Shown in pieces: positions 1 to 11,315 of a DNA stretch of 22,251 nt. The stretch is taken from IMG/VR virus record IMGVR_UViG_3300033571_010372, positions 1 to 22,251 of that record. One strand, given 5' to 3'. The position numbers and the translations under genes were made by a program. Below the pieces are notes generated by a model. That model had not been told where the DNA came from. It worked only from the letters and a program-made list of their open reading frames with translations, and did not search any database. This DNA is from a virus. Position 1 is the first letter of the stretch, and each line of letters opens with the position of its first letter.

Positions 1-210
1 GGTGCTCAGGGTGCTCAAGGTGCCGCAGGTGCTCAGGGTGCTGCTGGTACAAGTGGTATCAGTGTACAAGGTGCTCAGGGTGCAGCAGGTGCTCAGGGTG
101 CCGCAGGTGCTCAGGGTGCTCAAGGTGCCGCAGGTGCTCAGGGTGCTGCTGGTACAAGTGGTATCAGTGTACAAGGTGCTCAAGGTGCCGCAGGTGCTCA
201 GGGTGCAGCA
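1..210 (+). repeat. 105-bp tandem repeat in the collagen-like stalk
   Basis: Bases 1-75 are repeated identically at 106-180. The rest of the unit (76-105 against 181-210) differs only by a few third-position changes. The 105-bp unit encodes 35 residues: collagen-like triplets plus one GISVQ interruption. A third GISVQ occurs 114 bp further on (from 274), in a diverged context. The near-identity suggests recent unequal exchange, which would let fibre length vary. Confidence 0.9.
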
Positions 211-732
211 GGTGCTCAGGGTGCTGGTGGTACAGGTGGTACAAGCGGTGCACGTGGTACAAGTGGTACAAGTGGTATCAGTGTACAAGGTGCTCAGGGT
301 GCTGCTGGTACAAGTGGTAAGAATGGTACAAGTGGTACGAGTGGTACGAGTGGTAAGAATGGTACGAGTGGTACTTCAGGAAGTACATCTGATAGACGAT
401 TGAAGAAAAACATCAAACCATTTACTAAGGGATTGAAAGATCTGTTAAAGATCAATCCTGTTGAGTTTGAGTTTAACTCGACACCTGGCAAAAAAGAAAC
501 GGGTGATATGATTAGTTATGGTGTTGTTGCACAGGATGTGATGAATATATTCCCAGAAATTGTGACTATGTTTGAAAGTAAGCCACATCCTGACAGTCCG
601 GGACCACAAAAGTTCTACTGGGTCAATCCTGAGAAACTACAGTGGGTAACAATCAATGCATTCAAGGAGTTGTATGTTCGGGTATTGATGTTGGAAGAAC
701 AGGTAAAAGAATTGACCGCCAAAATAAAATAA
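1..732 (+). CDS. Collagen-like fibre protein with C-terminal S74 chaperone domain (5' partial)
   Basis: The gene enters from the left edge in frame 1; 243 residues are visible. Residues 1 to about 128 are Gly-X-Y collagen-like repeats (GAQ, GAA, GTS), broken three times by the five-residue unit GISVQ at residues 19, 54 and 92. From residue 130 there is a peptidase S74 / intramolecular chaperone domain of the endosialidase type. It starts SDRRLKKNI and continues with GVVAQDV, FPEIV and a C-terminal coiled coil (LEEQVKELTAKI). Ser130 and Lys135 have the spacing of the Ser-Lys pair used for self-cleavage in that family. Known members trimerise fibres or spikes and then release the C-terminal domain. 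The protein is probably a trimeric tail fibre or virion fibre whose receptor-binding part could lie upstream. The stalk next to the S74 domain is rich in Thr-Ser-Gly, a plausible acceptor for the glycosyltransferases that follow. Confidence 0.88.
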   Translation, partial: GAQGAQGAAGAQGAAGTSGISVQGAQGAAGAQGAAGAQGAQGAAGAQGAAGTSGISVQGAQGAAGAQGAAGAQGAGGTGGTSGARGTSGTSGISVQGAQGAAGTSGKNGTSGTSGTSGKNGTSGTSGSTSDRRLKKNIKPFTKGLKDLLKINPVEFEFNSTPGKKETGDMISYGVVAQDVMNIFPEIVTMFESKPHPDSPGPQKFYWVNPEKLQWVTINAFKELYVRVLMLEEQVKELTAKIK

Positions 733-743
733 ATGAAACTAAA

Positions 744-799
744 TGTGGGGTGATATGATATAGTACAATGAGTTATCGAATACTATATATCACCCCACA
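744..799 (+). promoter_or_regulatory. Hairpin enclosing the start codon of the first glycosyltransferase
   Basis: Left arm 744-763 and right arm 783-799 form a 17-bp stem with a single 3-nt bulge (757-759). The outer 13 bp are perfect (TGTGGGGTGATAT against ATATCACCCCACA). The ATG at 768 sits in the 19-nt loop, and the only G-rich, Shine-Dalgarno-like stretch (GGGGTG, 747-752) is inside the stem. The right arm lies in the first codons of the gene. There is no T-tract, so this is not a normal terminator. It probably limits ribosome access to the gene. Confidence 0.6.
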
Positions 800-3236
800 C
801 CTTTCTACAGGTGGATGTCCTCAGTATCTTTTAAAGAAGATTCAGTTGTTGAACAATGACAATGAAATTTATTGTGTAGAATATCATGACTATGGTGAAT
901 GGTTTACCGTACAGAAAAACCAAGTTCGTGAACTGTTAAAAGATCGTTATTATGCTTTGAAAGAAGATAAACGTGAGATTTTAAACATAATAAACAAGAT
1001 TGATCCGCAGGTAATTCATATTGAAGAAATGCCTGAATATTTCATGGGTGACGATATTGCGGATGAAATCTATAAACCCGAACGAACGTACAATATTGTA
1101 GAAACTTCACACGATAGCAGTTTTAATCCGGCTACAAAACGTCATTTTCCTGACCGATTTGTATTTGTGAGTGAATATCAGCGACAAAATGTTGTTTCAT
1201 TGAAAATACCGTCTGAGGTTGTTGAGTATCCGATACCATTCAAATCCAGATTGAACAGAACTGAACAATTGACAGAGTTTGGTTTGGATCCAAATTTGTT
1301 TCATGTTGTTAATGTTGGGTTGTTTTCTCCACGGAAAAATCAATCGGAGATTATGGAATATGCTAGAAAGATGACACATCTTCCTATTCAGTTTCATTTT
1401 GTTGGAAATCTAGCAGGTAACTTTCAGCATTATTGGGATCCTTTGTTGAAAGATGTTCCATCCAACTGTAAAATCTGGGGTGAACGGTCAGATGTTGACA
1501 AGTTTTTTGGTTGTATGGATTTGTTTTTGTTTACCAGTAGAGGTCATGCAAACGACAAAGAAACCAGTCCTATTGTGATTCGTGAAGCCATCAGTTACAA
1601 TATACCTTCATTGATTTACAATCTTCCTGTGTATTTGGGTATGTACAACAAATACAAAAACGTAAAATATTTGACCGAGAATTTTGATGAAAATGTCAAA
1701 TTGATTGAATCGTACATTCCAAAGCAACACAAGTGTGAAAAGCCTTATTGTTATGTGGTGTCTTCATATCCATATACAGATTTGATGGAAAAGACAACGG
1801 TTAATTGTATTAGAAGTCTGACCAATTCACATACAATTTTGACTACACATTATAAGGATCATGAAAAGTTCAAGAGTATTGCGGGCGAAGTTGTTTTTGA
1901 CGAATCCAATCCTATTATAAAACACACATTTTATGAATGGTACTGGGCAAAATATCATGAATTTGATTTGGACCTAAGACTCAATTGTGCTGACAACGAC
2001 AATTATCACGGTCTTGCTGTTTGGACCAATTATCAAAATGGAATACGTAGATCCAAAGAACTTGGTTACAAATACAGTGTGTGTATGAACTATGATTTGG
2101 TCATCAATGAAAAAGACCTTTCGGTGATTGAAAATATAGTTTCATCTTTGGAGTCGTCCAAGAAAAAAGGATATTTCATGTATGAAAAGGCACAGGAAGG
2201 CGATACATTGAAAACCATCTTTTTTGTGATCGACAACGACTATTTTATTGAAAAATTCAAATCTGTTAGAACCGATCAAGAATATTCAGACGATCTTGAC
2301 AGAGTGGACAGTCCTTCAAATGGACTTGAGAACTATGTTTACAATGTTTTGAAAAACAACCTTGGTGATATTATTGTAGCCAATGAAAGTGAAAGAACAT
2401 TGTTTACAAACAGTGAAGTGAATTTGTTTTCGTGTGTAGAATATTCATCTGTTCTTCCAGTTGCCAATGAAAATAAGTTTGTTGTGTGGAAAAACAATGA
2501 ACATATTGTGGATAACAAACACGTCGTGGTTGATGTGTATGAAAATGGCACACTACTTTCTAAAATTGGGTTTTTGCAAACATGCAGAACTCATGTAAAT
2601 ACAATTTTTGACATCAAACCCGATTCAAAATACGATGTTATTTTTCAAGAGTACAATGTGAACTTGGAACGGGTGTCATCAAAAACAGTATCATTCAAGA
2701 ACAAATCTGATTTGATGTTGCATGGCGAATATAGAGTAGCAAACTTGTCAGTAAAAAATGACATCAAGAAAACGTCCAGACTGAATGTGCATCATTTCTC
2801 GACGGTTGAGCAATCTACTGATTTTGTGTCTTCTCTGCCTGGTGTCATTTATCGACAGTATAACACTTTGACTGATGTTGATGTTTTTTCATTGTTAAAG
2901 TATTCTCCAAATGAAACTCATTTGATTTTAAAAAATGTAACTTCTAATTTGTCCCCGGAAGAATTCATTAAGGTCGTAAAAGATGCACGTGATTACATGT
3001 ACGATAACAACCTACCCATTTACTCGTTTAGCACTTCTTTGGATGGTGCATTTTTTGGAAACGCAAAACATGCTACAGGATACAAATTGGCAGACACAGA
3101 TGCATATTTGATAAATAACGATTATTTACAATCACTGTCGGAGGTTAAAATTAGCGATTCGATGTCGTTGTTTAATAATTATCTGTCAAAACAAAAGAAA
3201 GGTTTTTCAACATCCTTTGATATTATAACGTTATGA
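768..3236 (+). CDS. Large glycosyltransferase, N-terminal GT4-like domain
   Basis: 822 residues. Residues 1 to about 325 look like a GT-B fold glycosyltransferase of family GT4. The N-terminus, ILYITPHLSTGG, is the usual first strand and glycine loop. NVGLFSPRKNQ begins near residue 182, and an EX7E motif (E265 to E273, ETSPIVIRE) would bind the nucleotide-sugar donor. A second region starts near residue 330 (CYVVSSYPY) and could be another sugar-transferase domain, but I see no decisive catalytic motif there. From about 560 to the end I recognise nothing. A typical GT4 enzyme has 350-400 residues, so this is a multi-domain protein. Its stop overlaps the next start (ATGA, 3233-3236), which implies translational coupling. 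The start at ATG 768 lies in a hairpin loop. Codons are mostly T- or A-ending, unlike the sheath gene. Donor and acceptor are unknown. Confidence 0.8.
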   Translation: MSYRILYITPHLSTGGCPQYLLKKIQLLNNDNEIYCVEYHDYGEWFTVQKNQVRELLKDRYYALKEDKREILNIINKIDPQVIHIEEMPEYFMGDDIADEIYKPERTYNIVETSHDSSFNPATKRHFPDRFVFVSEYQRQNVVSLKIPSEVVEYPIPFKSRLNRTEQLTEFGLDPNLFHVVNVGLFSPRKNQSEIMEYARKMTHLPIQFHFVGNLAGNFQHYWDPLLKDVPSNCKIWGERSDVDKFFGCMDLFLFTSRGHANDKETSPIVIREAISYNIPSLIYNLPVYLGMYNKYKNVKYLTENFDENVKLIESYIPKQHKCEKPYCYVVSSYPYTDLMEKTTVNCIRSLTNSHTILTTHYKDHEKFKSIAGEVVFDESNPIIKHTFYEWYWAKYHEFDLDLRLNCADNDNYHGLAVWTNYQNGIRRSKELGYKYSVCMNYDLVINEKDLSVIENIVSSLESSKKKGYFMYEKAQEGDTLKTIFFVIDNDYFIEKFKSVRTDQEYSDDLDRVDSPSNGLENYVYNVLKNNLGDIIVANESERTLFTNSEVNLFSCVEYSSVLPVANENKFVVWKNNEHIVDNKHVVVDVYENGTLLSKIGFLQTCRTHVNTIFDIKPDSKYDVIFQEYNVNLERVSSKTVSFKNKSDLMLHGEYRVANLSVKNDIKKTSRLNVHHFSTVEQSTDFVSSLPGVIYRQYNTLTDVDVFSLLKYSPNETHLILKNVTSNLSPEEFIKVVKDARDYMYDNNLPIYSFSTSLDGAFFGNAKHATGYKLADTDAYLINNDYLQSLSEVKISDSMSLFNNYLSKQKKGFSTSFDIITL

Positions 3237-5317
3237 GAATTTGTCAAGTTACGCCCGGTCTTATCGCAATTCCACCAAACGGGTGGGGTGCTATTGAAAA
3301 AATCATATGGGAATATAAATTGAACCTTGAGTCTCAGGGTCATACGTGTGATATCAAATATTTGGATGAAGTTCGTAAAGAAGATTATGACATTGTTCAC
3401 ATTCATGTTGCCAATCTGGCGTTGATTGCACATGAACGTGGAATACCTTATGTTTTTACAATGCATGATCATCATACGGAAGTGTATGGAAAAGATTCGT
3501 TATTATACAAAGAAAATAGAGAAGCAATGCAGAAATCTGTTGTGTCGTTTGTTCCTGCACGACATTTGGTTTCGTATTTTGATTGTCATAAGGTACATTA
3601 TTTGAGTCACGGTGTAAACACCAATTTTTTCAAACCATCAAGTTTTGATATACCGTGTCACACTTTGTTGTGTGTTGGAAACAACGGATTGGCAAACGAT
3701 GTCAATTTTGACAGAAAGGGATTTGCATATGCTATTGAAGCTGCACGTAAACTGAATATGCCAATTACAGTTGCGGGTCCAACTAAGAACAATAAGTCAT
3801 TTTTTGAAAACAATCCATCATATAAACCTTATGAAAAACTGACAATCTTGTATGATCTGAACGAAAATGAATTAGCAGAGTTGTATAGAAAATACACGAT
3901 TTTCTTACATCCATCATCCGTTGAGGCCGGTCATCCAAATTTGACATTGTTGGAAGCAATGGCTAGTGGTTTGCCTGTGGCATGTACATATGACAGTGAT
4001 CCGTTGCCAGGCACGGTTAAAATCGAAAGAGACGTTGATAGTGTAGTAAATGCAATCAAGACCATAATGGGTAATTATAGCAACTATTATACTCAGTCAC
4101 TTGATACCGCTTCCAAAAACACATGGTCAAGTGTGGTCAAAACAATGGTCGAAAAATATTACACACAGATTGATAGTTTCAGAATGAGAAACGAACTGTT
4201 GGATATTTACGAGTCAACCCTGACCGGTGTCAAACAGGAACAAAAAGCATCGTTTTATCTAAACTTTGTAGAGGGTGCTTATTTGTCTATTTCAGGAGGT
4301 CCAAAAAACACAGAGTACAATTTTCAGTTTATTGACTCTGATACAAATGAAAATTTGTATGGCGGCAATATGAAAACGCTACACTGGTCTAAGTGTTCGG
4401 TTCAAAGATACGTTCCGTATAGAATTTCCATATCTTCTGGTTCACAACTTTTGTTTGATTACAAATTGGATTTGACAAATAAAGAAGTGTTGATTGTATT
4501 AGATACCACTTCACTTGGAGATGCAATTGCGTGGTTTCCGTATGTAGAGGAATTTAGAAAAAAACACAATTGTCATATTACCTGTTCAACCAATTGGGAT
4601 GAACTTTTTAGATCTACATATCCACACGTTAAATTTACACCGTTGATGTGGTCAGGTGATTATTATGCGGTTTATAAAATTGGATGTTATAACGACAAGA
4701 GAATGTCTTTGTACAATTACAAAAATGTTTCTCTACAAAGATTGGCGTCGTCGATCTTGGGTCTTCCAAATTCTGAAATTAGACCTGTTATAGATGTCAA
4801 AGATCCTGTTCGAAAGATTCAAAACAAGTATGTGTGTTTTGCTACAGAGTCAACTGCTCAAGCAAAATACTGGAACAATCCTAATGGTTGGCAGGAAACT
4901 ATCAATTATCTTAACAGTGTTGGATTGGAACCGGTGTTGATTCAGTTGGGAGAAAACAACTCGTTTTCAAACATCAGAAATCTTTCGGGTAAAAAGAGTA
5001 TACACGAAACTATCAATTACTTGTATAATTGTGAATTCTTCATCGGCTTGGGTTCTGGTTTGTCATGGCTTTCATGGGCACTAAATAAGCCAACTGTGTT
5101 GATCAGTGGATTTAGTGCTCCGGAAAGTGAGTTTTATACACCATACAGAGTTATCAACAACAATGTTTGCAATAGCTGTTGGAACGAACATGAGTTTGAT
5201 AAGGGCGATTGGAACTGGTGTCCACGATTGAAAGGTACTGACCGACAGTTTGAGTGTTCTACGCAGATTAGTTCAAGTATGGTTATAGAAAAGATCAATC
5301 AAATCATACAAAAATGA
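3233..5317 (+). CDS. GT4 glycosyltransferase fused to TibC/AAH-like O-heptosyltransferase
   Basis: 694 residues with two enzymes in one chain. Residues 1 to about 330 are GT4-like: an N-terminal GWGAIEKI loop, HGVNTNFF, then E231 and E241 around PNLTLLEAMASGLPV. Residues from about 338 to 694 resemble the bacterial autotransporter heptosyltransferase (BAHT) family. They comprise a short beta domain (FVEGAYLSISGG to about residue 415) and a GT9-like catalytic part from about 417 (TTSLGDAIAWFPY, GLGSGLSWLSWALNKP). Near the C-terminus four cysteines, C646-X2-C649-X13-C663-X11-C675, match the metal-binding arrangement known in TibC. BAHT enzymes transfer heptose from ADP-heptose to Ser residues of surface proteins. 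I infer, but cannot show, that this protein builds an O-glycan in which one domain places the first sugar and the other extends it. The 4-nt overlaps at both ends put it in an operon with its neighbours. Confidence 0.85.
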   Translation: MRICQVTPGLIAIPPNGWGAIEKIIWEYKLNLESQGHTCDIKYLDEVRKEDYDIVHIHVANLALIAHERGIPYVFTMHDHHTEVYGKDSLLYKENREAMQKSVVSFVPARHLVSYFDCHKVHYLSHGVNTNFFKPSSFDIPCHTLLCVGNNGLANDVNFDRKGFAYAIEAARKLNMPITVAGPTKNNKSFFENNPSYKPYEKLTILYDLNENELAELYRKYTIFLHPSSVEAGHPNLTLLEAMASGLPVACTYDSDPLPGTVKIERDVDSVVNAIKTIMGNYSNYYTQSLDTASKNTWSSVVKTMVEKYYTQIDSFRMRNELLDIYESTLTGVKQEQKASFYLNFVEGAYLSISGGPKNTEYNFQFIDSDTNENLYGGNMKTLHWSKCSVQRYVPYRISISSGSQLLFDYKLDLTNKEVLIVLDTTSLGDAIAWFPYVEEFRKKHNCHITCSTNWDELFRSTYPHVKFTPLMWSGDYYAVYKIGCYNDKRMSLYNYKNVSLQRLASSILGLPNSEIRPVIDVKDPVRKIQNKYVCFATESTAQAKYWNNPNGWQETINYLNSVGLEPVLIQLGENNSFSNIRNLSGKKSIHETINYLYNCEFFIGLGSGLSWLSWALNKPTVLISGFSAPESEFYTPYRVINNNVCNSCWNEHEFDKGDWNWCPRLKGTDRQFECSTQISSSMVIEKINQIIQK

Positions 5318-6135
5318 AATCGGTTTATGTTCGATTTCAAAGTGAGGCACTGGGCGATAGTATTGCTTGGTTACCTTATCTGGAAGAATACGAACGAATC
5401 AACAATGTGTTGGTGTATTCCAATTGTTGTTATTCAAATTTATTTGGGGATGTTTATCCGGATAGATATTTTTCAAAAAATGATGGTATATGTGATGTCG
5501 TAGAAATTGGTATCACCAACAGAGAAATACCGTTGCAACGTGTTGCAGCTGATTGTTTGGGATTGACTTTTGCAGAAAGAAAGCCCCGATTCAATTTTTC
5601 AAAATTGAATAAGTCGGTTGATAAAACCATCACTTTTTCTGAATTTGGTAGCAATTATTGTAAATCGTGGAATAATCCTTATGGTTGGATCAAAGTGATT
5701 CAACACATTGTTTCCAAAGGATATACACCGATTTCGGTATCCAAAGAAAGTACCGGATTGAATAATGTCCGTGATTGTACTGGGCTAGATTTGTTGTCTG
5801 TGTGCAATTTGATATATTCTTCTCATGCGTTTGTCGGTGTCAGTTCTGGCCTTGCATGGTTGGCGTGGGTGTTGAATGTGCCTGTCGTAATGATAAGTGG
5901 TCATACACATTCTTACTTTGAATTTCAAAGTGGCAATGAACGTATTTCAATATCTGATTTCAACAAGAATATTTGTGTTGGGTGTTACAACAATAACAAC
6001 GTAAATGTGGACTGGGACGATATGTGGTGTCCTTTTCACAAAGGTACTATCAGAGAACATGAATGTACGTATTCTATAACTCCTTCGATGGTTGTATCAA
6101 AAATAGATAAAATTCTAGCCTTAAAATATAAATAG
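5314..6135 (+). CDS. Stand-alone GT9/BAHT-like heptosyltransferase domain protein
   Basis: 273 residues, overlapping the previous gene by 4 nt (ATGA). It is a paralogue of the C-terminal catalytic part of that gene, with the same landmarks in the same order: EALGDSIAWLPYLEEY at the N-terminus, WNNPYGW, GVSSGLAWLAWVLNVP, and a closing Cys4 motif, C221-X2-C224-X14-C239-X11-C251, with WCP and KGT between the last two cysteines. It lacks the GT4 domain and the N-terminal beta domain. Expected activity is transfer of heptose or a related sugar from an ADP-sugar; the acceptor is unknown. It may work with the fused enzyme as a hetero-oligomer, since BAHT enzymes such as TibC form large rings, or it may add a different sugar. 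The exact donor cannot be read from the sequence. Confidence 0.85.
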   Translation: MKSVYVRFQSEALGDSIAWLPYLEEYERINNVLVYSNCCYSNLFGDVYPDRYFSKNDGICDVVEIGITNREIPLQRVAADCLGLTFAERKPRFNFSKLNKSVDKTITFSEFGSNYCKSWNNPYGWIKVIQHIVSKGYTPISVSKESTGLNNVRDCTGLDLLSVCNLIYSSHAFVGVSSGLAWLAWVLNVPVVMISGHTHSYFEFQSGNERISISDFNKNICVGCYNNNNVNVDWDDMWCPFHKGTIREHECTYSITPSMVVSKIDKILALKYK

Positions 6136-6166
6136 TTGGTCTTTCAATTTTTTGGAAATATTTATA
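6127..6166 (+). promoter_or_regulatory. TATAAATA / TATTTATA inverted pair upstream of the sheath gene
   Basis: TATAAATA at 6127-6134, identical to the T4 late promoter consensus, overlaps the stop of the preceding gene. Its reverse complement TATTTATA is at 6159-6166. They lie about 90 and 58 nt before the sheath ATG. TATTTATA recurs before four other genes here. Either copy could be the promoter for the strongly expressed sheath gene. The sequence alone does not say which. Confidence 0.45.
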
Positions 6167-9958: not shown

Positions 9959-10632
9959 TTGTCAAGTTATTATGTTTGTATCCGCATATTTATATTGGTA
10001 TGTTAAGCTTAAAATCTATAATCCCTGAAGTATTTGACCACAATTTGCTGGAAAAAGAAAACGATTCAACCGCAATAATTTTTTGTGACATGGATGGTGT
10101 TATTGCTGATTTTGATGCTGGCTTTGTTAAAATTTCCGGCGGTAAAACTCCTGCTCAATTTGATGCTGAAAACAATAGTGAAGGAATGTGGAATATTATA
10201 AAACAGCAGCCTAATGATGGCATTGATTTCTGGGCAAATTTGCCTAAAATGGAAGGAGCGGATACACTTTGGAAGTTTATAAATTCATTGGGTTATACCG
10301 TCAAAATTTTGAGTAGCACTGGTTCAAGATATTCAAAAAGCAATTCAGCGCAAATAGGCAAGTTGAAGTGGTTACAAACACATGTTGTGCCTGTTCCATC
10401 TGAAGAAAATACTATTTTGGTGGATAGTTCAGATGCAAAACAACAATATGCGCATGGACCAAATTACATTTTGATTGATGATCTTGCATCAAACATTTCA
10501 CAGTGGAGAGCCGCAGGTGGAACCGCAATTGAACACAAAAACGTCAACAAAACAATAGCAGAATTGAAGTCGATTTTGGGTGTAGAGAACTCTACCAAAG
10601 AAAGTTATGGATATAGCTGGTCAAACGTATGA
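9955..10632 (+). CDS. HAD-superfamily phosphatase (5'-nucleotidase-like)
   Basis: 225 residues. The HAD motifs are in order: motif I DMDGV with nucleophile D45 and acid/base D47, motif II SST at 120-122, a lysine-containing stretch after it, and motif IV LIDD with D175 and D176. The FCDMDGVIADFDAGF opening resembles deoxyribonucleotidases of the NT5C kind, so removal of phosphate from a nucleotide is a fair guess. The real substrate is not shown. The start used here forms an ATGA overlap with the preceding small ORF. An alternative start at 10000, just after a TATTTATA element, removes 15 residues (MIVKLLCLYPHIYIG) without touching the catalytic domain. The stop overlaps the nucleotidyltransferase start (10629-10632), so the two are probably co-translated. 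Confidence 0.8.
   Translation: MIVKLLCLYPHIYIGMLSLKSIIPEVFDHNLLEKENDSTAIIFCDMDGVIADFDAGFVKISGGKTPAQFDAENNSEGMWNIIKQQPNDGIDFWANLPKMEGADTLWKFINSLGYTVKILSSTGSRYSKSNSAQIGKLKWLQTHVVPVPSEENTILVDSSDAKQQYAHGPNYILIDDLASNISQWRAAGGTAIEHKNVNKTIAELKSILGVENSTKESYGYSWSNV
9987..9994 (+). promoter_or_regulatory. TATTTATA element inside the 5' end of the HAD gene
   Basis: An exact TATTTATA copy, 5 nt before an in-frame ATG at 10000. The spacing to that ATG matches the element before the coiled-coil gene (4 nt). This supports 10000 as an alternative start used from a separate transcript. Confidence 0.35.
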
Positions 10633-11315
10633 AATATCGAATTTATAACGACACATTGAATCCAAATATCTGGAATCCAGACAATACATTAAAACCGGAA
10701 GTTCGAAGTGCTTTGATAAAAATTGCACAGGATTTCTATACTGATTCGGAACTAAAAGCACCAATTCAGGACATTTATATTTTGGGAAGCGTAGCTAATT
10801 ATAACTGGGGGCCGCATAGCGATATTGATCTTCATGTGCTTGTAGACTTTTCAAAAATTGGATCCGATAAAGAGCTGGTCAAAAAGTTGGCGGACAACAT
10901 AAAAGCCAACTGGAATAAAAAACACAACATAACCATAAAAGGATACAAAGTAGAAACATACATTCAGGATATCAACGAGACAAATAGAGCAATGGGTGTA
11001 TACAGTGTTTTAAACAATAAATGGATCAAAGTACCACAAAAACTCTCTCTAAACCTCGATAAATCAAACATTCAGAAACTTTATTCGACCATTGTTTTGC
11101 AAATACGAAATGCCGTTAAAACCAAAAACATTGAAGAATTGAAACGTATATTGAAATCGATCTACAATATGCGTGAAACCGGACTTAGCAAAGGTGGTGA
11201 ATTTAGCACCGAAAACATAGTGTTTAAACTGTTGAGATCCAAAAAACACATCGATGCTATCAAAGACACAATTTCCAAAACATACGATCAACAACATTCT
11301 TTGAAAGAATCATAA
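10629..11315 (+). CDS. Nucleotidyltransferase of the DNA polymerase beta / MNT superfamily
   Basis: 228 residues. The active-site signature is clear: ILGSVANYNWGPHSDIDLHV, with G53-S54 and carboxylates D65 and D67, and a probable third carboxylate at E109 in KVETYIQD. Family members transfer a nucleotide to a protein, antibiotic or RNA end. The C-terminal half (about 140-228) is helical and basic, a possible substrate-binding region. The gene overlaps the HAD gene by 4 nt, so the products may act on the same nucleotide-containing target, for example addition and removal of a nucleotidyl group. This is inference. The target could be host RNA, a host protein or a virion component. It is unlikely to be structural, despite lying between sheath and tube genes. 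Confidence 0.85.
   Translation: MKYRIYNDTLNPNIWNPDNTLKPEVRSALIKIAQDFYTDSELKAPIQDIYILGSVANYNWGPHSDIDLHVLVDFSKIGSDKELVKKLADNIKANWNKKHNITIKGYKVETYIQDINETNRAMGVYSVLNNKWIKVPQKLSLNLDKSNIQKLYSTIVLQIRNAVKTKNIEELKRILKSIYNMRETGLSKGGEFSTENIVFKLLRSKKHIDAIKDTISKTYDQQHSLKES

Follow-up and report, generated by a model that had tools for sequence, protein, structure and literature searches.

In the 22,251-base IMG/VR fragment IMGVR_UViG_3300033571_010372 (here called the window), whose gene content resembles the tail module of a T4-like myophage, three plus-strand open reading frames (ORFs; genes 1 to 3), each overlapping its neighbor by 4 nt, lie between a collagen-like fiber gene and the tail sheath gene. 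Judging from their sequences, these genes probably constitute a virion protein O-glycosylation cassette that places sugar on Ser or Thr residues in the phage's own fiber, along its collagen-like stalk, an explanation to which a probability of about three in four was assigned. Two of the encoded proteins contain domains related to TibC and AAH of the BAHT family, which is known from its association with bacterial adhesins. On balance, the data also favor the existence of a second branch of this family, found in both phages and bacteria, which has lost the thumb of TibC and glycosylates (Gly-Thr/Ser-Ser)n chains, those of fiber stalks in the phages and, in the bacteria, those of small secreted proteins or lipoproteins. 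The phage donor in this branch need not be heptose. The stalk is the likely acceptor in the window, and a collagen-like stalk has not previously been described as an acceptor of the BAHT family.

An earlier note on this DNA had described three overlapping glycosyltransferase genes between fiber and sheath, which the ORFs and Pfam matches bore out, and had read the middle one as a GT4 domain joined to a complete TibC/AAH-like O-heptosyltransferase with a beta domain and a Cys4 motif. The fusion was readily recovered. Residues 335 to 691 of gene 2 scored 334 bits with TIGR04414 (hepto_Aah_TibC; cut-off, 200), gene 2 matched TibC (4rap) with an E value of 6e-69, and the four cysteines (C646, C649, C663, and C675) were in place. 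A structural match to TibC, set beforehand as a check, was obtained with the AlphaFold model of gene 2 (predicted local distance difference test score, 90), which aligned to TibC (4rb4) with an E value of 4e-37 and a template modeling score of 0.87 relative to the target, over 376 columns including the beta domain. The strands of that domain were predicted from residue 340 to approximately residue 411. On the basis of sequence and predicted fold, the homology of gene 2 to TibC/AAH is close to certain. The GT4 fold preceding it contains EAGHPNLTLLE, with noncanonical spacing of the E-x7-E motif. Gene 3 proved TibC-like as well (E value against TibC, 3e-28; 158 bits for TIGR04414, under the cut-off of 200, over profile positions 83 to 374), but it begins at the end point of the TibC beta barrel and has no beta domain.

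The word "complete" did not hold for gene 2, because the thumb, which the dodecamer requires, is shortened, although the beta domain and the Cys4 motif are both present. In TibC, this beta-hairpin thumb (F265/V266) closes the dodecamer ring (PMC4358343). In an alignment of 157 domains (94 bacterial, 54 full-length phage, and 9 short phage), the thumb comprised 29 residues in 85 of the 94 bacterial domains and 19 to 21 in the clade of the window, with 21 in gene 2 and 20 in gene 3; the tip residues F265/V266 were gapped in both genes.

The proposal that the virion's collagen-like stalk is the target is strongly and independently supported by the joint occurrence of enzyme and collagen-like repeats in two phage lineages and by the gene neighborhoods in bacteria. 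Among 26 related records of the sheath family, ORF scans detected Gly-X-Y tracts of at least 8 triplets in 13/13 records carrying the enzyme and in 0/13 noncarriers (Fisher, 2e-7, a value that overstates independence because the records are related and incomplete). On the sheath tree, the enzyme label switches some three times, with at least 2 to 3 independent changes, so the 26 records amount to a few independent events, and the weight rests on agreement across separate lineages. In the lineage of Microcystis phage Mel-JY01, where collagen was scored with PF01391, as it was in more distant carriers, it was present in 3/3 carriers versus 4/22 noncarriers. In all four collagen-positive noncarriers, the collagen gene is cut off by the contig end, and the enzyme may be encoded past the break. 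Collagen was also found in 21 of 24 more distant carriers, giving 37 of 40 carriers overall. The stalks of carriers usually consist of Gly-Thr/Ser-Ser triplets. When the tracts of the 13 sheath-family carriers were pooled, a set dominated by a few long stalks, the share of Ser plus Thr was 85% at X and 84% at Y and that of Pro was below 0.4%, and the tracts were Ser/Thr-rich in 10 of the 13. In 39 carrier records, no match to TIGR04415, the strand-loop-strand acceptor repeat that TibC and AAH modify, exceeded the cut-off.

The adjacency of fiber gene and cassette, originally taken as a clue, holds in the window's clade alone. In sister phages, the cassette stays beside the sheath gene and the collagen genes lie 12 to 60 kb away; therefore, it is co-occurrence and not adjacency that is conserved. 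The sheath gene is directly downstream in the window's clade and in most sister-clade carriers, and capsid and tail proteins of mycobacteriophages are known to be glycosylated (Freeman et al. 2023, cited in PMC12619734). Even so, it is unlikely that the cassette glycosylates the sheath or another virion protein in place of the stalk, as cassette-free relatives have same-family sheaths of similar size, the cassettes of distant carriers adjoin collagen genes away from any recognizable sheath, and the partner in the co-occurrence is the collagen repeat.

Several observations nevertheless weigh against modification of the stalk. The sheath gene is a more constant neighbor of the cassette than the fiber gene is, and the visible tracts of three sheath-family carriers (G004, G006, and G013), two of them in contig-end fragments, are of the GAQ or GPA type and not Ser/Thr-rich. 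No collagen match was found in 3 of the 24 distant carriers, nor within 20 kb in the jumbo phage LR756504. For the window itself, where the fiber gene is represented by its 3' end alone, Pfam placed both a collagen-like stalk and an S74 chaperone domain in the ORF. The 41 visible Gly-X-Y triplets mix GAQ/GAA with GTS/GKN types at 23% Ser plus Thr, so the description of this stalk as Ser/Thr-rich suits its GTS-rich end best; the visible stalk overall is Thr/Ser-rich in part only. The support for stalk modification is genomic.

The strongest argument for the short-thumb branch acting on (Gly-Thr/Ser-Ser)n chains is provided by the bacterial neighborhoods. An ORF encoding (Gly-Thr/Ser/Ala-Ser/Thr/Ala)n was located at most 1.1 kb away at 8/8 BAHT loci with a thumb of 20 or 25 residues, one of which (L090) looks phage derived, versus 0/69 full-thumb loci. 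These neighbors are usually small proteins with a signal- or lipobox-like start, and no autotransporter was found beside the enzymes. The triplet-protein loci (Table 1) belong to Gammaproteobacteria and Polaromonas, and several of the proteins have a lipobox-like Cys. At full-thumb loci, the neighbors were strand-loop-strand proteins (TIGR04415) in 21 of 22 scanned. Whole-genome searches likewise returned many strand-loop-strand repeats in 3/3 full-thumb genomes and none in nine short-thumb or phage-type genomes. In a survey of 311 Methylococcales genomes, a Gly-Thr-Ser (GTS)-type neighbor was observed at 8/9 short-thumb loci, two of which (L119 and L152, from Methylomicrobium or Methylobacter) are already counted above, versus 0/8 full-thumb loci; the ninth short-thumb locus has a poly-Ser protein in the same position (L529:3027-3446). 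The bacterial short-thumb BAHT and the triplet protein are apparently an enzyme-acceptor pair. If so, (GTS)n beside its enzyme would be an unusually simple acceptor whose specificity is directly testable, and a visible structural change, the loss of the thumb, would be tied to a change of acceptor.

Glycosyltransferases of aquatic phages are usually read as acting on the host surface (pelagimyophages, PMC7029224; jumbo phages). Remodeling of host surface glycans or of a host surface protein, for example, to block superinfection, is nonetheless improbable for genes 1 to 3. TibC-like enzymes act on proteins, the three genes overlap inside a virion gene module with no membrane segment seen in a hydropathy check, and the same genomes contain collagen repeats and no acceptor repeats of a known type.

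With respect to activity, the residues corresponding to Lys230, Trp305, and the four iron-binding cysteines of TibC were invariant in 157/157 domains, and the one corresponding to Asp110 was present in all but one domain, in which the position was gapped. At the positions of Asp110, Thr226, Lys230, and Trp305, gene 2 has D, T, K, and W and gene 3 has D, S, K, and W, and both keep all four cysteines of the finger. In TibC, Asp110, which is the catalytic base, Lys230, Trp305, and the Cys4 residues are required, and the thumb and Arg286, the latter a contact of the adenine in ADP-heptose, are needed as well (PMC4358343). The Arg286 equivalent was kept in 89/94 bacterial domains and in 15/54 full-length phage domains; gene 2 has Thr at this position and gene 3 has Val. 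Pro300, which sets stereoselectivity in TibC, is replaced by Gly and Ser, respectively. Because the core residues are kept, the TibC-like domains of genes 2 and 3 are predicted to be catalytically active, which is likely; the altered Arg286, thumb, and Pro300 lend no support to an ADP-heptose donor or a dodecamer. Despite the alteration of Arg286 and the thumb, it is very improbable that the domains are decayed, act as a scaffold only, or serve small-molecule or nucleic-acid modification, since the core is retained across the alignment and also in bacterial short-thumb enzymes, some with Arg286, that are encoded next to a repeat protein.

The name O-heptosyltransferase was not sustained. A search for ADP-heptose genes in 40 related records found no GmhA, and the HldE-II matches were weak, cytidylyltransferase-like, and all under the cut-off; given also the replacement of Arg286, the donor sugar may be heptose or another. 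In two phages, cytidylyltransferase-like genes were seen directly beside or near the BAHT gene (L163, G039:18052-18435; L164, G032:78356-78736), and their products could supply an activated donor different from ADP-heptose.

For stalk glycosylation, the following course can be envisaged. Soluble enzymes made late in infection would act on the stalk while it is still unassembled in the cytosol, with the Ser/Thr hydroxyls of the Gly-X-Y (Gly-Thr/Ser-Ser) triplets taking the sugar. The TibC-like domain of gene 2 would add the first sugar by the TibC mechanism, as an inverting GT-B enzyme with Asp430 as the base. TibC cannot lose its beta barrel, and gene 3, which has no such domain, may be a partner of gene 2 or may target other residues. 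The GT4 domains, as well as the middle domain of gene 1, may add or supply further sugars, and the glycan may be extended or capped by GT4 domains and the FkbM-type methyltransferases that are encoded in many related cassettes. The resulting coat could stabilize and protect the nearly proline-free stalk. Stabilization would be a reasonable benefit because unglycosylated E. coli prophage collagens rely on proline and charged residues, which are lacking here, and glycosylated threonine has been named as an alternative way to stabilize collagen (PMC3368898). It would explain how hundreds of proline-free Gly-Thr-Ser triplets stay folded, soluble, and protease resistant. The coat may equally well shield the stalk from proteases, receptors, or defenses.

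Comparison with known systems helps to define what is new. Gene 2 shares with TibC/AAH (TIGR04414; 4rap and 4rb4) the beta and GT-B domains, the Cys4 motif, the core residues, and the predicted fold. Apart from the changes in the thumb, Arg286, and Pro300, the window's enzymes differ in the GT4 fusion and in being phage encoded, beside or together with collagen-like stalks and with no strand-loop-strand acceptor. EPcl of E. coli O157 prophages (PMC3368898) likewise has a Gly-X-Y stalk in a phage fiber, but EPcl stalks are proline/charged-rich (GPK, GPQ, and GPA) and the recombinant protein is unglycosylated, whereas the carrier stalks are of the GTS/GSS type with almost no proline. In mycobacteriophages, phage glycosyltransferases are also thought to decorate the virion; the enzyme families, hosts, and acceptors are different, and the consulted passage of that article mentions no BAHT or collagen stalk (PMC12619734).

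The GT4-BAHT fusion occurs widely among aquatic phages. Relatives are encoded in at least 144 IMG/VR stretches, and of the best 80, most match across the full GT4-BAHT length. Among 50,697 deposited phage records, 4 had a match, namely, Mel-JY01 and three huge-phage assemblies. Of the best 78 bacterial and archaeal loci, a single one (L085; PAAV01000055.1), on a contig from a Chloroflexi metagenome-assembled genome, matches across the full length; its BAHT ORF of 1,144 aa adjoins a gene 1-like ORF, and the contig is probably a phage contig. In the tree, the autotransporter BAHTs formed a single clade (43 of the bacterial rows, 100% support) with no phage sequence inside. Tandem BAHT pairs were observed in Negativicutes and other Bacillota (L087, L089, L096, L103, L108, and L110). 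If the stalk is indeed modified, virion glycosylation would be common among aquatic tailed phages. An open-access literature search returned no paper on Mel-JY01 and none on phage BAHTs, and the three database records with a TibC-like domain in Table 1 propose no acceptor and no role.

The insertion site could be read from sister phages without the cassette, in which a gene of 1061 to 1066 aa abuts the sheath gene; inspected by eye, its product reads like an SbcCD/Mre11-Rad50-like protein. In carriers, the cassette separates this gene from the sheath gene or, for members of the clade of the window, fiber from sheath.

Table 1. Positions of the cassette, its neighbors, and related proteins (window coordinates unless a locus is given)
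Feature	Position	Strand	Basis or remark
Tail fiber gene, 3' end, open at window edge; candidate acceptor	1..732	+	PF01391 1.1e-13 and Peptidase_S74 PF13884 3.1e-14 (in 1-729); PHROG tail fiber matches
Fiber Gly-X-Y stalk, then S74 intramolecular chaperone	~1-387, then 388-564	+	PF01391, PF13884
Gene 1	768..3236	+	822 aa
Gene 1 domains: GT4; alpha/beta; beta; alpha/beta C-terminal	residues 1-320; 327-545; 557-645; C-terminal	+	E265-x7-E273 invariant in 23 homologues
Gene 2, GT4 + BAHT (TibC-like) fusion	3233..5317	+	694 aa
Gene 2 N-terminal GT4 domain, residues 1-331	3233..4225	+	PF00534 1.6e-9; fold neighbors MshA, BshA, PimA
Gene 2 TibC-like domain, residues 335-691	4235..5305	+	TIGR04414 8e-100; beta domain ~4244-4468
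Asp430, counterpart of TibC catalytic base Asp110	4520..4522	+	Alignment; PMC4358343
Cys4 iron finger (C646, C649, C663, C675)	5168..5257	+	Invariant across 157 aligned domains
Gene 3, second TibC-like catalytic domain without beta domain	5314..6135	+	273 aa; base, Lys, Trp, and Cys4 kept
TATTTATA, late-promoter-like motif ahead of sheath gene	6159..6166	+	Motif search
Tail sheath gene, conserved downstream neighbor of the cassette in the window's phage family	6225..9563	+	PF04984, PF17482
Gly-Thr-Ser/Gly-Thr-Ala/Gly-Ser-Ser triplet proteins	L086:3596-3934, L107:3730-4128, L123:11234-11641, L162:8578-9006		Beside short-thumb BAHTs
Same triplet-protein class	L094:11124-11432, L119:11211-11912, L152:8923-9786		Beside short-thumb BAHTs
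A0A6J5SVC1, "Glycosyltransferase Aah/TibC," uncultured Caudovirales phage			TibC-like domain present; database annotation
A0A7S9XE01, Virus NIOZ-UU157			TibC-like domain present; database annotation
WWT39291.1, "methyltransferase FkbM," Microcystis phage Mel-JY01			TibC-like domain in a different fusion, 1226 aa

Gene 1 comprises a GT4 domain and three further domains. In the GT4 domain, E265-x7-E273 was invariant among 23 homologues. The first alpha/beta domain (window 1746-2402), for which Pfam and PDB profiles gave no match, is possibly GT-A-like and occurs as a standalone ORF in L018, L019, and L021. The beta domain was considered as a copy of the TibC beta domain, and this was rejected as no profile similarity was found in shallow alignments.

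Downstream of the sheath gene, the window continues with deoxyribonucleotidase-like and nucleotidyltransferase-like genes, the tail tube (11378), a baseplate protein (12361), the tape measure (13473), and more baseplate genes. The nucleotidyltransferase-fold protein (PF01909, phrog_36119; 10629-11315) is placed between tail genes. The motif TATTTATA was not seen upstream of genes 1 to 3 in the window. It occurred on the plus strand at 6159, 9987, 11346, 11934, and 13450, ahead of the sheath, deoxyribonucleotidase-like, tube, 11946, and tape measure genes, respectively. Over both strands there were 6 copies versus 1.0 expected, a number reached in 0 of 100 shuffles, and equivalent sites were present in G001.

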